Assembly: GCA_029003235.1 (NCBI GenBank)
Contig: JAQYBZ010000066.1
Coordinates: 1 to 37,513, forward strand
Origin: Bacillota bacterium
GTDB taxonomy: Bacteria > Bacillota > Clostridia > Oscillospirales > Oscillospiraceae
Reading direction: 5' to 3'
DNA length: 37,513 nt
Made by a program: the position numbers and the translations under genes. Of this stretch, positions 21,742 through 37,282 are shown one piece after another; within the stretch, counting starts at the first letter, position 1, and each line of letters starts with the position of its first letter. The notes below the pieces were generated by a model. It had not been told where the DNA came from and made no database searches. It saw only the letters and a list, made by a program, of their open reading frames with translations.

Positions 21742-21770
21742 AGGCGCAAGAAATATGGGAGGCTATGTCC

Positions 21771-23030
21771 ATGAGTATCATTAAAGACCCGTCTCTTGCC
21801 GAATCCGGCAGAATGAAAATCAAATGGGTAGAAGACTATATGCCCGCCCTGGGCGCCATCCGCGCCCGGATGGAAAAAGAGCAGACCTTCGCCGGGCTGA
21901 AGATTACCATGTCCATCCACATGGAAGCCAAGACCGCCTATCTGGCCACCTGTCTGCAGGCTGCCGGTGCCGAGGTACACGCCACAGGCTGCAATCCCCT
22001 GTCCACGCAGGATGACGTGGCCGCCGGCCTTGCTTCCCTGGGGGTGCAGACCTACGCAAAGCACGGCGTCAGCGCCGAGGAATACCGGGAGCTGCTGGTG
22101 GCGGCTCTGCGCTGCCGTCCGGATCTCATCATCGACGACGGAGGCGATCTGCTGGAGCTGCTCACCGGCGACTATAAAGAGCTGGGCGAGAACATCATCG
22201 GCGGCGCGGAGGAGACCACCACGGGCATTCACCGCCTGCGTGCCCGGGCAAAGGCCGGGCTGCTGCCCTTCCCCATGATGGACGTCAACGACGCCAAGTG
22301 CAAGCACTACTACGACAACAAATACGGCACCGGCCAGAGCGTGTGGGACGCCATCATGCACACCACCAATCTGCTGGTCGCCGGAAAGACCGTAGTCGTG
22401 GCGGGCTACGGCTACTGCGGCAGAGGCGTGGCCATGCGGGCAAAGGGCATGGGCGCCAACGTCATCGTCACGGAAATCGATCCCATCAAAGCGCTGGAGG
22501 CGTCCATGGAGGGGATGCGCGTCATGCCCATGGACAAAGCCGCCAGCGAGGGTGATCTGTTCATCACCACCACCGGCTGCCGGGACGTGATTACGGCGAA
22601 GCATTTTCAGGTCATGAAAAACAATGCGTTCCTGGCCAACGCTGGGCATTTTAATGTAGAGGTCAACGGCGAAGAGCTGGAACAAATGGCCGTGCGGGTC
22701 TTCCCCCGGCGGCAGGACATTATGGGCTACGAGCTGCCCGACGGCCGGGTGCTGAATCTGCTGGCCGAGGGACGGCTGGTGAATCTGGCCTCCGGAAACG
22801 GCCATCCGGCGGAGATCATGGACATGAGCTTCTCCATTCAGGCGCTGGCACTGGAGTACATGAAGAACCACGGCGCCCATTTGGAAAAGGCCGTCTACGA
22901 CATCCCCCGACAGATCGACGACACCGTATCTCTGCTCAAGCTGCAGGGCATCGGCATGGAAATTGATCACCTGACTCCGGCGCAGGAGCAGTATCTGGCC
23001 GGCTGGGAGGTTCAATTTCCCCAAAAGTGA
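21771..23030 (+). CDS. ahcY: Adenosylhomocysteinase (S-adenosylhomocysteine hydrolase)
   Basis: MSIHMEAKTAYLA, GCNPLSTQDDVAAGL, GGAEETTTGIHRL, YGYCGRGVAMRAKGMGA NAD-binding motif. Confidence 0.95.
   Translation: MSIIKDPSLAESGRMKIKWVEDYMPALGAIRARMEKEQTFAGLKITMSIHMEAKTAYLATCLQAAGAEVHATGCNPLSTQDDVAAGLASLGVQTYAKHGVSAEEYRELLVAALRCRPDLIIDDGGDLLELLTGDYKELGENIIGGAEETTTGIHRLRARAKAGLLPFPMMDVNDAKCKHYYDNKYGTGQSVWDAIMHTTNLLVAGKTVVVAGYGYCGRGVAMRAKGMGANVIVTEIDPIKALEASMEGMRVMPMDKAASEGDLFITTTGCRDVITAKHFQVMKNNAFLANAGHFNVEVNGEELEQMAVRVFPRRQDIMGYELPDGRVLNLLAEGRLVNLASGNGHPAEIMDMSFSIQALALEYMKNHGAHLEKAVYDIPRQIDDTVSLLKLQGIGMEIDHLTPAQEQYLAGWEVQFPQK
23010..23029 (+). repeat. Left copy of direct repeat bounding decayed island (candidate attL)
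   Basis: GTTCAATTTCCCCAAAAGTG; AATTTCCCCAAAAG identical to 25093-25106. Confidence 0.75.
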
Positions 23031-23651: not shown

Positions 23652-24413
23652 TTATAATGTTTCGTCCGATTCTTTTTGGAGCCGAACACCGTACTTAAAT
23701 ACAGTTACCAGACACATTGTTACGGCAAAAGCGATTAAAACACCCCACTGGATGCTGATTCCGACGTCTCTTCCGGCAGACAGGAAAGCTGTTGAAAGTG
23801 TTTCGCCAACGGTGGCAAAAATCGCAACGGGAAGAAGCGAAAAACCGAATGCTTTCATCCTTTTCACAAGTTCGTCGCAGAACGGAGAGTCACACTTCGC
23901 AAGCACGGCAAAAAGCCTTTTCAGCATATATAAAGCTGCGGCTACAGAAGCAACAAACAAGGTGAGGAATATAAGAACTGACACCAAATCTGTTGAACGA
24001 TACTCGGCAGGCGATGACTTGGCTTCCATTACCTTTGTATTTCCATCGGAATAGATTTTAGCGGAAGAATATGACTGGTTGAAAAATGATAATTCTGTAT
24101 TAAAGTCCTGATTTTCGGGTGGAGTAATTTTATCACTTTCATCACTTAACATTTCCTCGGGACTTGTGTCTCCCGCATAAGAAAAACTGTCTACAAGAAT
24201 GCCCCAGAGAGAATCGAAATTCTTTTCGTTAATCCTGAATTCAGCATTATTGGTAACACGAACCGTTAGTGCATCCTTGGGAAGTGAAGCCACAAAAATT
24301 GTAGCTGCCAAGCTCACAGCAGTTGCTAAAATTGCTATAACCATCAATACAGTCATTGCAATCTTACCTACTTTACCGAACTTGTGGAAATTTGAAAGAG
24401 TTTTTGAATTCAT
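23652..24413 (-). CDS. DUF2975-like multi-TM membrane protein
   Basis: Multi-TM protein with GISIQWGVLIAFAVTMCLVTVFKYGVRLQKESDETL tail, directly upstream of a small XRE gene. Confidence 0.65.
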   Translation of the reverse strand: MNSKTLSNFHKFGKVGKIAMTVLMVIAILATAVSLAATIFVASLPKDALTVRVTNNAEFRINEKNFDSLWGILVDSFSYAGDTSPEEMLSDESDKITPPENQDFNTELSFFNQSYSSAKIYSDGNTKVMEAKSSPAEYRSTDLVSVLIFLTLFVASVAAALYMLKRLFAVLAKCDSPFCDELVKRMKAFGFSLLPVAIFATVGETLSTAFLSAGRDVGISIQWGVLIAFAVTMCLVTVFKYGVRLQKESDETL

Positions 24414-25146: not shown

Positions 25147-25166
25147 GTAATCGAACAAGTGAATAA

Positions 25167-25259
25167 CCTTATCAAGAGTGGCGGAGGGACCGGCCCTATG
25201 AAGCCCAGCAACCTGCGTAAGAAAGGTGCTAATTCCGGCGAGTAAATCGGCAGATGAGG
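25167..25259 (+). ncRNA. SAM-I (S-box) riboswitch aptamer
   Basis: CTTATCAAGAGTGGCGGAGGGACCGGCCCTATGAAGCCCAGCAACC...GGTGCTAATTCCGGC...GATGAGG; P1 CCTTATC/GATGAGG pairs. Confidence 0.96.
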
Positions 25260-25270
25260 ATTGTATTTTT

Positions 25271-25300: not shown

Positions 25301-25319
25301 ATGAAAGGACGTATGTGTG

Positions 25320-26480
25320 ATGATGAAACGTATTTTTACTTCCGAATCCGTGACGGAAGGCCATCCCGACAAAGTATGCGACCAGATCTCCGACGGCGTT
25401 CTGGACGCCATTCTCTCCAAGGATCCCAACGCCCGCGTCGCCTGCGAGTGTGCAGCCACCACCGGCATGGTGCTGGTCATGGGCGAAATCTCCACCAACT
25501 GCTATGTGGACATCCCCAAAGTTGCCCGGGAGACGCTGAAAAAGATCGGCTACGACAGCCCCGAAGCCGGATTCAACGGCAACACCTGCGCCGTTCTGAC
25601 AGCCATTGACGACCAGTCCGCCGACATCGCCATGGGCGTGGACAGCTCCTATGACGAGGCCGACACCACCGGCGCCGGCGATCAGGGCATGATGTTCGGT
25701 TTCGCCTGCGACGAGACGGAAGAGCTTATGCCCGCTCCCATCTATTATGCCCACAAGCTGTGCCGAAAGCTCACGGAGCAGCGCCGGAGCGGCGCTCTGG
25801 GCTGGCTGCGCCCCGACGGCAAGAGCCAGGTATCCGTACAGTACGGTGAAAACGGCCAGGTAGAGCGCATCGACACCGTGGTGGTCTCCACCCAGCACGC
25901 CGCAGACATCTCCATTCAGGATCTGCGTGAGGCCGTGATCGAGCAGGTCATCAAGCCCACTCTGCCTGCCCGCCTGCTGGACAACGACACCCGCTTCTAT
26001 GTCAATCCCACCGGCCGGTTCGTTCTGGGCGGCCCGGCGGCAGATTCCGGTCTGACCGGCAGAAAGATCATCGTCGATACCTACGGCGGCTACGCCGCCC
26101 ACGGCGGCGGCGCATTCTCCGGCAAGGATCCCACCAAAGTTGACCGCAGCGCCGCCTATATGGCCAGATATATTGCCAAGAACATCGTCAAGGCCGGTCT
26201 TGCCCGGAAGTGCCAGATCGAGCTGGCCTACGCTATCGGCGTGTCCCAGCCCGTGTCCGTTCTGGTGGATACCTTCGGAACGGGAACCCTCAGCGACCTG
26301 CGCCTGAGCGAGCTGGTGCGCCAGTGCTTCGACCTGCGTCCGGCCGCCATTATCTCGGCGCTGGATCTGCGCCGTCCCATCTACCAGCAGACCGCCGCCT
26401 ACGGTCATTTTGGCCGCAGCGACCTGGATCTGCCCTGGGAAAAGACCGACGGCGTGGAAAAGCTGCTGGAAAAGGTGTAA
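25320..26480 (+). CDS. metK: S-adenosylmethionine synthetase
   Basis: [51 protein letters not shown]. Confidence 0.97.
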
Positions 26481-29852: not shown

Positions 29853-30269
29853 ATGAATATCACACTGATGGCTCATGACAAGAAAAAAGAACTGATGGTG
29901 CAGTTCTGCACCGCCTATAAAAGCATTCTTGCCAAATATAATCTCTCCGCCACGGCGACCACCGGCCGTCTGGTGGCGGAAGCCACCGGCCTGCCCATCA
30001 CCCTGTTTCTGGCGCACAATCAGGGCGGCCACCAGCAGGTAGACGTGCGCATCGCCTATAACGAGATCGACATGGTGCTCATGTTCACCGACCCCAGCTC
30101 CAAAGACCCCTGGGACAATCAGGCGACGCTCCAGACCCTGTACCTGTGCGACGCCCACAACGTGCCGGTAGCCACCAATCTGGCCACGGCGGAGCTGCTG
30201 GTGCTGGGACTCCAGCGCGGTGATCTGGACTGGCGTGAGCTGCTCCATTCCAAACGGGAGCGCAAATAG
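29853..30269 (+). CDS. mgsA: Methylglyoxal synthase
   Basis: LMAHDKKKELM, ATATTGRLVAEATGL, MFTDPSSKDPWDNQATLQTLYLCDAHNVPVATNLATAE. Confidence 0.95.
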   Translation: MNITLMAHDKKKELMVQFCTAYKSILAKYNLSATATTGRLVAEATGLPITLFLAHNQGGHQQVDVRIAYNEIDMVLMFTDPSSKDPWDNQATLQTLYLCDAHNVPVATNLATAELLVLGLQRGDLDWRELLHSKRERK

Positions 30270-33867: not shown

Positions 33868-34413
33868 ATGAAAACACTTTTGCATATCTGCTGTGCCCCC
33901 TGTTCCAATATGTGCATCCAGAGTCTTCGGGAGGAGGGCATAGAAGTCACGGGCTTTTGGTATAATCCCAACATCCACCCCTTCACCGAATACCGCGCCC
34001 GGCGCAACTGTCTGCGGGAATACGCCCAGACCATTGATCTGCCCCTCATAGAGCAGAACGACTACGGCCTGCGCCCCTTTGTGCGCGCCGTGGCTGAGGA
34101 CATCCCCAACCGCTGCGTCAAATGTTATGAAATGCGCCTGTTCCGCGCCGCAGTCGTCGCCCGGGAGCAGGGCTTTGACAGCTTTACCTCCAGCCTGTTT
34201 ATCTCTCCCTATCAGAAGCACGAGCTTATGTGTCAGGTGGCACAGCGTGCCGCCGAAGCAAACGGCGTCCAGTTTCTCTACCGGGATTTCCGTCCGCTGT
34301 TTCGGCAGGGGCAGGAGCGCGCCCGGGAACTGGGCTTTTATATGCAGAAATACTGCGGCTGCGTCTTTTCCGAGGAAGAGCGTTATCTCAAAGCCAGCAG
34401 AATTCTTCCCTGA
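33868..34413 (+). CDS. queH: Epoxyqueuosine reductase QueH (DUF208 family)
   Basis: LLHICCAPCSNMCIQSL, FWYNPNIHPFTEYRAR, RCVKCYEMRL, YCGCVFSEEERY. Confidence 0.93.
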   Translation: MKTLLHICCAPCSNMCIQSLREEGIEVTGFWYNPNIHPFTEYRARRNCLREYAQTIDLPLIEQNDYGLRPFVRAVAEDIPNRCVKCYEMRLFRAAVVAREQGFDSFTSSLFISPYQKHELMCQVAQRAAEANGVQFLYRDFRPLFRQGQERARELGFYMQKYCGCVFSEEERYLKASRILP

Positions 34414-34445: not shown

Positions 34446-35321
34446 ATGACAGAAAAATTTATTCGCACCCAACTGAAAAAGATGCAGTCTCGCATGGATA
34501 ACGAGCCCATTTCCGTGGAGCGCAAGGGGCAGGAGCTGCTGGGCAGGATTCTGCAAATGCTCCCCCGGGAGGATCTGCAGAACACGGAGATGGAACTGCC
34601 GCGCTGCCGCGCCGCCATGATCCGTCCCAAGACGCCCGACTGTGACGGCGCTGTGCTGTATCTCCACGGGGGCGGCTATTGCTGCGGCGATCTGGCCTAC
34701 GCCAAGGGCTTTGGCTCCGTGCTGGCCGCCCAGTCCAACTGCCGGGTCTTCTGCCCGGCCTACCGCCTCGCGCCGGAGCATCCCTTCCCGGCGGCGCTGG
34801 ACGACGCCATGGACGCCTACCGCTTTCTGCTCGCGTCCTTTGCACCGGAAAAGCTGGTGCTGGCGGGAGAATCCGCAGGCGGCGGACTGATCTACTGCCT
34901 GTGCCTGCGGCTGAAACAGGAGGGACTTCCCCTGCCCGGCGGTCTTGTGGGAATCTCTCCCTGGAGCGACCTCACCGGTTCCGGCCTCTCCTACCGGACA
35001 AATGCAGCCGTGGATCCCTCCATGACGCCCCAGCGCCTGCGCCACTATGCTTCGTTGTACACCGACTGTCCGGAGGCGCCTCTGGCCTCCCCTCTGTTTG
35101 GCGATCTGCGCCAGATGCCCGAAAGCCTGCTCTTTGCCGGTGGAGACGAGATCATGCTGGACGACGCCGTGACCCTCCACGGCAGGCTCCTTGCCGCCGG
35201 ATGCCGCAGCACCCTGACTGTGGCGCCGGGTCTGTGGCACGCCTATGTGCTCTACGGTCTGAAAGAGCGCAAGCAGGATCTGACCGACATTGCCGCTTTT
35301 ATCCGGAGGATCGCAAAATGA
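34446..35321 (+). CDS. Alpha/beta hydrolase (HSL-type esterase)
   Basis: YLHGGGYCCGD, YRLAPEHPFPAALDDA, GESAGG catalytic motifs. Confidence 0.9.
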   Translation: MTEKFIRTQLKKMQSRMDNEPISVERKGQELLGRILQMLPREDLQNTEMELPRCRAAMIRPKTPDCDGAVLYLHGGGYCCGDLAYAKGFGSVLAAQSNCRVFCPAYRLAPEHPFPAALDDAMDAYRFLLASFAPEKLVLAGESAGGGLIYCLCLRLKQEGLPLPGGLVGISPWSDLTGSGLSYRTNAAVDPSMTPQRLRHYASLYTDCPEAPLASPLFGDLRQMPESLLFAGGDEIMLDDAVTLHGRLLAAGCRSTLTVAPGLWHAYVLYGLKERKQDLTDIAAFIRRIAK

Positions 35322-36586
35322 GCAAGCTATGGCTGCGGCTGGACAACGCCGCGCTGATCTTCCCTGCCGTGCGGCGTAAGGGCTGGTCCAATGTGTTCCG
35401 CCTTTCCGCCACGCTGACAGAAGAAATCGACCCGCTGCTCCTGCAGCAGGCCGTCAACGCCCTGAAGCCCCGGTTCCCGTCCATGTATGTGCGCCTGCGC
35501 ACCGGGCTGTTCTGGTATTATCTGGAGGAAGCTGCCGCTCCCGCCGTCCGGCAGGATTACGCCTATCCTCTGGCCTATATGGGGCAGAAAGAGCTGCGCA
35601 CCTGCTGCCTGCGGGTACTGTATTACCGGCAGCGCATCGCCGTGGAATTCTTCCACTCTCTGACCGACGGCACCGGCGGCTCTGTCTATCTGCGTTCCCT
35701 GGTGGCGGAGTATGTCCGCCTGAAATACGGCGCAGCGATCCCTGCCACCGACGGCGTTTTGTCTCCGGAGGAAGCCCCCAGACCGGAGGAGCTGGAAGAC
35801 AGCTTTCTGCGCTACGCCAGCAAATACGCCCTTAGCCGTAAGGAGCCCGACGCCATGCGCCTGAGCGGTACGCCGGAGCCCGACGGATTTCTCCATCTCA
35901 TCACCGGCGTGGTTCCCACCTCGGCGCTGCTGGACGCGGCGCATGCCCATCAGTCCACGGTCACCGTGTTTCTGGCCGCCGTTATGGCGCAGGTAATTCT
36001 GGAAATGCAGGCCGAGCGCACGCCCCTCACCCGGCAGAAGCCCGTTAAGATCACCGTACCCGTGAATCTGCGCCAGCTCTACGGCAGCCGCACCCTGCGC
36101 AATTTCGCTCTGACCCTCAATCCCGGGGTAGACCCCCGGCTGGGCAGCTATACGCTGGACGAGCTGTGCCGCGCCATTGCCGGCCAGCTTGCCGCCGAAG
36201 CCACTCCCCAGCAGATGGCGGGCCGCATGGCCGCCAACGTCAATCCCCAAAAACTGCCGCTGCTGAAAATCGCCCCCCTGTTTATCAAGAACATCGCCCT
36301 GCGCATGGTTTATGCCTCCGTGGGCGAACGCAAGGGTTGCCTGAACATCTCCAATCTGGGCAGGCTGACCCTGCCGGAAGCCCTGCACCCCTATGTGCAG
36401 CGGCTGGAATTTATCATCGGTGTGCAGGCCACCTATCCCAACAACTGCTCCGTGGCCACGCTTGGGGAGACCACCTGCATCAACATGATCCGTAACATCC
36501 GGGAAGCCTCCCTGGAACAGCGGTTTTTCTCCCGTCTGGTAGAGCTGGGGATCCCCGTCACCATCGAAAGCAACAAAAGAAGGTAA
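35318..36586 (+). CDS. Condensation-domain/alcohol acetyltransferase-like CoA-dependent acyltransferase
   Basis: FFHSLTDGTGGSVYL (HxxxDG), VPVNLRQLYGSRTLRNF, ISNLGRL; start overlaps hydrolase stop (ATGA). Confidence 0.72.
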   Translation: MSKLWLRLDNAALIFPAVRRKGWSNVFRLSATLTEEIDPLLLQQAVNALKPRFPSMYVRLRTGLFWYYLEEAAAPAVRQDYAYPLAYMGQKELRTCCLRVLYYRQRIAVEFFHSLTDGTGGSVYLRSLVAEYVRLKYGAAIPATDGVLSPEEAPRPEELEDSFLRYASKYALSRKEPDAMRLSGTPEPDGFLHLITGVVPTSALLDAAHAHQSTVTVFLAAVMAQVILEMQAERTPLTRQKPVKITVPVNLRQLYGSRTLRNFALTLNPGVDPRLGSYTLDELCRAIAGQLAAEATPQQMAGRMAANVNPQKLPLLKIAPLFIKNIALRMVYASVGERKGCLNISNLGRLTLPEALHPYVQRLEFIIGVQATYPNNCSVATLGETTCINMIRNIREASLEQRFFSRLVELGIPVTIESNKRR

Positions 36587-36592
36587 GGAACT

Positions 36593-37282
36593 ATGTATTG
36601 TGTAAAATGCGGCGTGCGTCTGCAGGAAGGCGTCGAGCGCTGTCCTCTGTGCGATACGCCCGTGTGGCGGCCGGAGGAGCCGGCAAAGGAACCGAAAAAT
36701 TATTCCGCCCGCTACCCCAAAGCCCCGGCCAGCAGCCGGATCCCGGTGCTGGCTTTTTTGACCGTGGGTCTCGTTGCCGTGTGCCTGTCCGCTTTGATCT
36801 TCTGTCTGAGCACCTATCACGCGGTGAGCTGGTCGGGTTATGTCATGCTGGGCATTGCGGTACTGTACTGTATTACTCTGCTGCCTTTGTGGTTCGACAA
36901 CCCCCATCCCATGATCTTCGTTCCTCTTGGCTTTGTCAGCGTCTGCGGGTATCTGCTCTATATCTGCCTGTACAACGGCGGAAGATGGTTTTTGTCCTTC
37001 GCCTTTCCCATTGTGATGATTACCGGCGCCATCACCACGGCGACCATTGCCCTGTTTCGCTATGTCAAGCGGGGCAAGCTGTTTATTACCGGGGGTCTGC
37101 TCATCGTCATCGGCTGCAGCTCCATGCTGCTGGAAATGTTTGAGCATATCACCTTCGGCACCAAAATGTTCACCTGGTCTCTGTACCCGGTCAGCGCCTT
37201 TTCCGCTTTCGGCCTGTTTTTAATCCTGGCCGGTGCTATACGGCCTTTGCGGGATTATCTGTCGCGGAAATTCTTCCTTTGA
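36593..37282 (+). CDS. Zinc-ribbon multi-TM membrane protein (DUF6320-like)
   Basis: N-terminal MYCVKCGVRLQEGVERCPLCDTPV then about six TM helices. Confidence 0.7.
   Translation: MYCVKCGVRLQEGVERCPLCDTPVWRPEEPAKEPKNYSARYPKAPASSRIPVLAFLTVGLVAVCLSALIFCLSTYHAVSWSGYVMLGIAVLYCITLLPLWFDNPHPMIFVPLGFVSVCGYLLYICLYNGGRWFLSFAFPIVMITGAITTATIALFRYVKRGKLFITGGLLIVIGCSSMLLEMFEHITFGTKMFTWSLYPVSAFSAFGLFLILAGAIRPLRDYLSRKFFL

Follow-up and report, generated by a model that had tools for sequence, protein, structure and literature searches.

On a contig from an Oscillospiraceae bacterium (GCA_029003235.1, JAQYBZ010000066.1; we call the whole 37,513-nucleotide stretch that was analysed the window), three genes lie head to tail on the forward strand and encode a hydrolase, an acyltransferase (AT) and a membrane protein. 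A first-pass annotation, made from the sequence alone, suggested that they form an uncharacterised lipid or glycolipid acylation system in which an acyl ester is made and broken next to a membrane partner. This raises the question of whether the three genes belong together and, if they do, what is being acylated. Here we follow the trio across 179 AT loci and use its partners, gene fusions and known relatives to propose what it may do.

Three genes with intact active-site motifs

The open reading frames and their active-site motifs are intact (Table 1), which bears out the layout that had been read from the sequence. The hydrolase and AT genes overlap by ATGA at 35318–35321, and 6 nt (36587–36592) separate the AT gene from that of the membrane protein.

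The hydrolase scores 165.2 bits against PF07859 (Abhydrolase_3; cut-off 25) and carries HGGG, GESAGG and a C-terminal WHAY histidine, as expected of the HSL esterase it was taken to be. Its putative catalytic triad consists of Ser143, an acidic residue in GGDE (Asp234 or Glu235) and His265 of WHAY; in the aligned hydrolase parts of fused relatives, the Ser, Glu and His are invariant and the Asp varies. The closest relatives in the PDB are the HSL esterases Aes72, EstD11, EstE5, E40 and Est8, which have fold and motifs in common with the trio hydrolase at up to 36% identity; bacterial HSL esterases match the hydrolase half of a fused relative (a predicted model) with a TM-score of about 0.9 on the target. 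Unlike these enzymes, the trio hydrolase is encoded in an operon with, or fused to, an acyltransferase. Although it has the GESAG motif, its 208.1 bits against the NCBIfam model GESAG_HSLs (cut-off 430) leave it outside that curated subfamily. In each of three genomes (the window's own, that of Clostridium thermocellum and a third, G215), the trio hydrolase is the sole PF07859 match at E ≤ 1e-15, so its position adjoining the AT is unlikely to be due to chance. Neither the hydrolase nor the AT has an obvious signal peptide in its sequence.

In the AT, His113 and Asp117 of the HxxxDG motif are invariant among 28 aligned homologues, and Gly118 is found in at least 90% of them. The curated matches of the window copy are weak and below cut-off: PapA5 at E = 7.5e-4 (18.5 bits against an NCBIfam cut-off of 396) and PapA_C at E = 0.015. 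Three relatives (L038, L048 and L106) score 24.4–27.6 bits for AATase (PF07247; cut-off 22), and at E ≤ 0.1 AATase is matched by 19 of the 28 family members and PapA_C (PF16911) by 18 of the 28. The motif fits the proposed placement in the alcohol-acetyltransferase, PapA and condensation superfamily, and the profile scores leave it less certain for the window copy. A sequence-profile search of the PDB with the AT found no relative, an hhalign comparison of its profile with the EntF condensation domain was not significant, and the 50 matches listed in a fold search with a model of the fused protein all cover the hydrolase half. The mycobacterial PapA5 and PapA family shares weak profile similarity and HxxxDG with the AT, but the latter falls far under the PapA5 model cut-off and polyketide genes do not recur near it.

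The membrane protein most likely belongs with the Pfam family DUF6320 (PF19845): it scores 27.0 bits over positions 1–184 of 186, just under the cut-off of 29.9, and occupies the genomic slot of relatives that score above it. Its AlphaFold2 model has six long helices (mean pLDDT 89.5), which, with the CxxC-x10-CxxC motif, agrees with the zinc-ribbon integral membrane protein described at first. Most trio copies carry this N-terminal ribbon beyond the Pfam domain. Its four cysteines are invariant across 30 aligned membrane-protein homologues, and the distribution of positive charges in the sequence (positive-inside) suggests a ribbon on the cytosolic side. A PDB sequence search with the protein found nothing, and a fold search of its model against solved structures gave nothing significant (best E = 0.39).

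Upstream of the trio, a QueH open reading frame ends at 34413, and no terminator-like site was found in the 32-nt gap, so that the trio may be co-transcribed with QueH. As nothing beyond the trio recurs around the AT, the link with QueH is not general. A search of the window for an RNA switch controlling the trio found none, the only RNA elements detected being a SAM riboswitch and one tRNA. Elsewhere in the window, a low-GC stretch (about 0.44–0.49) separates the S-adenosylhomocysteine hydrolase gene from the SAM riboswitch and synthetase gene.

Table 1. Positions of the trio, its motifs and other features mentioned in the text (window coordinates unless a locus is named)
Feature	Position	Strand	Remarks
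HSL-type alpha/beta hydrolase (ester hydrolase)	34446..35321	+	291 aa; PF07859 match
HGGG oxyanion-hole motif	34665..34676	+	hydrolase residues 74–77; invariant in 23 aligned fused relatives
GESAG nucleophile elbow (Ser143)	34866..34880	+	read from sequence
AATase/PapA-kind (CoA-dependent) acyltransferase (AT)	35318..36586	+	422 aa; assigned through the C. thermocellum AT homologue
HSLTDG, HxxxDG catalytic motif (His113, Asp117)	35654..35671	+	alignment of 28 homologues
Zinc-ribbon and DUF6320 six-helix membrane protein	36593..37282	+	229 aa; PF19845, AlphaFold2
Zinc ribbon CVKC-x10-CPLC (Cys3, 6, 17, 20)	36599..36652	+	proposed AT docking site
S-adenosylhomocysteine hydrolase gene	21765..23027		
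DUF2975 membrane-type protein	23652..24410	-	inside the low-GC stretch
SAM riboswitch	25166..25260	+	79.5 bits; directly 5′ of the synthetase gene
S-adenosylmethionine synthetase gene	25317..26477	+	
MGS-like domain protein	29853..30266	+	possible methylglyoxal synthase; just 3′ of a MinD/ParA-type ATPase gene
AT–DUF6320 fusion, L163	5683..7536		one frame
AT–DUF6320 fusion, L181	6309..8159		one frame
AT–DUF6320 fusion, L188	6648..8558		one frame
AT–DUF6320 fusion, L197	5575..7410		one frame
HSL gene adjoining AT–DUF6320, G604 contig C27	2597..5644		HSL gene on the opposite strand (divergent)
Trio of L106, Anaerotruncus colihominis plasmid NZ_CP094683.1	11042..14842		human gut isolate

Near-obligate pairing of AT and DUF6320

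Our survey of 179 AT loci covered the window, 80 close relatives, class- and phylum-wide genomes and two plasmids; its counts come from crude ORF calls on draft genomes and MAGs and are likely to contain small errors. AT and DUF6320 proved to be a near-obligate pair. A DUF6320 gene lies directly downstream of the AT in 164 loci and is fused to it in 4 (168 of 179 in total). Starting from DUF6320 instead, an AT was found within 1.2 kb of 93 of the 97 genes in the sampled Clostridia. AT homologues were found in 128 of 393 sampled genomes of the window's class (about a third), many of them from gut and rumen commensals.

The trio's gene order recurs in many genera, and this recurrence, together with the gene fusions, rules out chance neighbours. 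A larger biosynthetic cluster is likewise ruled out, as the module has no other gene family as a recurrent neighbour: genes for GAF-domain, PheST, glycoside-hydrolase and ATP-grasp proteins lie beside it in particular lineages only, and no substrate gene was found to recur in the AT neighbourhoods. The functional coupling of the three genes that the first-pass annotation supposed is strongly supported by their co-occurrence, by fusions of two kinds and by the repeated esterase recruitment described below. A plasmid search returned two distant carriers, one of them annotated and informative. The Anaerotruncus colihominis trio is plasmid-borne, and a gene of the diacylglycerol kinase (DAGK/YegS) family follows it after 22 nt.

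An optional esterase, recruited more than once

An HSL hydrolase gene is present in 87 of the 179 loci (36 upstream, 30 fused and 21 downstream). This count is conservative, because the same-strand rule used for it missed a divergent neighbour in one genome (G604). The remaining 92 loci lack an HSL gene in the operon, as do most of the window's nearest relatives; the esterase is therefore not obligatory, and a cycle that depends on it cannot be general.

Where they occur, the trio hydrolases come from several HSL lineages, between which non-trio HSLs of the same genomes are interspersed. These include a GESAG type that is upstream or fused (as in the window), a separate GESAG type that is downstream, a GDSAG type that is upstream (as in C. 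thermocellum) and others. In four further loci, a gene of the pectin-acetylesterase family (PAE, PF03283) replaces the HSL gene, 3′ of DUF6320; three of these (L120, L198 and L199) were scanned singly, and L201 was assigned by the tally of four and its matching slot. Candidate PAE genes in L141, L146, L150 and L165 were ruled out as MTHFR, ATP-grasp, ATP-grasp and 2-hydroxyacid dehydrogenase, respectively. In L120, the PAE-bearing module is preceded by a GH120-type gene and followed by an alpha-L-fucosidase gene. Because the trio hydrolases span several lineages and PAE fills the slot in four loci, the sequences indicate that an esterase has been recruited repeatedly to the AT–DUF6320 pair, and such repeated recruitment argues for a functional link more strongly than a single inherited operon would.

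Fusions and loss of the zinc ribbon

Hydrolase and AT are encoded in a single open frame of about 720 amino acids in 30 loci, and AT and DUF6320 in one frame in four (Table 1). On an AT tree (FastTree, 177 rows), which has several long branches and gives approximate event counts, the hydrolase–AT fusion requires a minimum of three changes and the AT–DUF6320 fusion a minimum of four. The former probably arose one to three times and was later lost in places.

All four AT–DUF6320 fusions lack the zinc ribbon. The nearest tree relatives of L163 and L197 are unfused and have kept it, and L181 and L188 belong to a clade whose unfused members also lack it. The simplest reading, suggested by the absence of the ribbon from all four fusions, is that the ribbon keeps the AT attached to the membrane protein, a task that falls away once the two are covalently fused. 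Ribbon loss with fusion is not a strict rule, and the ribbon is dispensable even without fusion, because nine loci have an unfused DUF6320 that lacks it. In a literature search largely outside the subscription journals, we found no paper naming DUF6320 and no description of the fusions or of ribbon loss; both, like the near-obligate DUF6320 partner, appear to be undescribed.

An assayed homologue in C. thermocellum

According to the report on it (PMC8112048), the C. thermocellum protein Clo1313_1074 (WP_003519433.1; 50.4 kDa) acetylates 2-phenylethanol with acetyl-CoA, has no activity on linear C2–C10 alcohols and is encoded in an operon with an esterase/lipase; 2-phenylethanol was a trial substrate there, and the in vitro part is given as 'data not shown'. 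We identified genome G588 as C. thermocellum from a scaffoldin CBM3 that is identical over 166 residues to PDB chain 4jo5. Its single AT match (426 aa, 50.45 kDa) lies in a hydrolase–AT–DUF6320 operon, as in the window; aligned over its full length (430 alignment columns, E = 6e-66), it shares 31% identity with the window AT. Its size, operon and uniqueness suggest that it may be the ortholog of Clo1313_1074, although the strain may differ. The esterase belongs to the GDSAG branch in C. thermocellum and to the GESAG branch in the window.

The module, which the first-pass annotation called uncharacterised, is therefore partly known: AT activity and an esterase neighbour have been reported for one species, and the passages of that account that we consulted mention neither DUF6320 nor fusions.

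A proposed membrane-docked acylation module

The linkage, fusions, motifs and family relations observed here, together with the acetyl-CoA-dependent alcohol acetyltransferase activity that the literature gives for one homologue, lead us to propose that the trio is a membrane-docked module for the reversible O-acylation of alcohols, most likely O-acetylation; we put the probability of this reading at roughly 0.5. DUF6320 would serve as an integral membrane platform, with a cytosolic N-terminal zinc ribbon that keeps the AT at the membrane's inner face. The AT would take an acetyl (or another short acyl) group from CoA and esterify with it the hydroxyl of a hydrophobic alcohol in or crossing the membrane, and the HSL esterase, adjoining or fused to the AT, would take the group off again, so that the pair could switch, proofread or recycle the ester. 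Ribbon docking, cytosolic topology, an esterase that opposes the AT, a hydrophobic substrate and a purpose in export or detoxification are the parts that we infer. The earlier picture of an ester made and broken beside a membrane partner fits these observations.

A precedent for such a pair is known from yeast: acetylation by Atf2 destines sterols for secretion, and Say1 removes the acetyl group from those that the cell retains (PMC4076087, PMC8857485). Sterol acetylation has been called yeast-specific (PMC4076087). Like Atf2 and Say1, the trio would pair an AATase-type acetyltransferase with a putative HSL-type deacetylase at the membrane, a works-like comparison for which gene pairing and fusion are what is observed in the trio. 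Family matches are weak on both sides, with PF07247 found in AT relatives and the Say1 family PF10340 matched by the window hydrolase at 38.7 bits, which is far weaker than its general HSL match and not specific. The trio differs in its additional DUF6320 partner and in its fusions. We tentatively suggest, as a possibility rather than an expectation, that bacteria acetylate and deacetylate a membrane-borne alcohol in a cycle of this kind. The deacetylase and the transferase would share a single polypeptide in some lineages, and the ribbon would dock the transferase on DUF6320, which would then be a new type of membrane scaffold or exporter.

The placement of a membrane partner next to the AT, or in one frame with it, could also mean that the trio remodels the acyl chains of a lipid or glycolipid: the hydrolase would remove a chain, the AT would add another and DUF6320 would present the lipid. 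The DAGK/YegS-family gene directly downstream of the A. colihominis trio is consistent with this, as are the AT relatives that score in PapA_C, whose namesake uses long-chain diols. Against it, no lipid gene recurs among 81 surveyed neighbour proteins, the hydrolase is missing from many loci and the sole assayed homologue used acetyl-CoA (PMC8112048). We regard such remodelling as unlikely, and the lipid or glycolipid acylation proposed in the first-pass annotation found no backing in the neighbourhoods, in which that one DAGK/YegS gene is the exception to an absence of recurring lipid-biosynthesis genes.

The same assay, in which 2-phenylethanol was accepted and linear C2–C10 alcohols were not (PMC8112048), would suit a role in making small aromatic or terpenoid esters, either as products or as a means of detoxification, with the AT acetylating plant or fermentation alcohols, the esterase recovering the alcohol and the membrane protein aiding entry or exit. 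The carriers include plant-feeding rumen and gut Clostridia and C. thermocellum itself. However, no aromatic catabolic or regulatory genes recur nearby, and presence in about a third of the sampled class genomes suggests a general role rather than a niche one; we consider this reading quite improbable. Least credible is a role for the 'hydrolase' as a transacylase that is charged from an existing ester and passes the acyl group to a second acceptor, the fusion being a two-step acyl relay: Est8, which is structurally one of the relatives closest to it, was deposited as an 'esterase with transacylase activity', and promiscuous acyltransferase activity in hydrolases including Est8 is the topic of a further report (PMC7383625), but the motifs are ordinary hydrolase motifs, and a slot filled by several esterase families is more in keeping with generic hydrolysis than with a specialised relay. 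A link to bile-acid acylation was dropped for lack of gene evidence.

Implications

AT homologues are common in the window's class, but the module has no assigned physiological role. The fusions offer a testable physical model of how its parts meet, and the C. thermocellum member brings genetics and metabolite profiling within reach. If the proposed cycle of acetylation and deacetylation is true, DUF6320 would gain its first function, and gut bacteria would have a switch that acetylates membrane-soluble alcohols reversibly; sterol-like molecules from the host, plants or bacteria could be among these alcohols. The cycle would then be widespread among gut Clostridia and correspond, in bacteria, to the yeast cycle in which sterols are acetylated for export.
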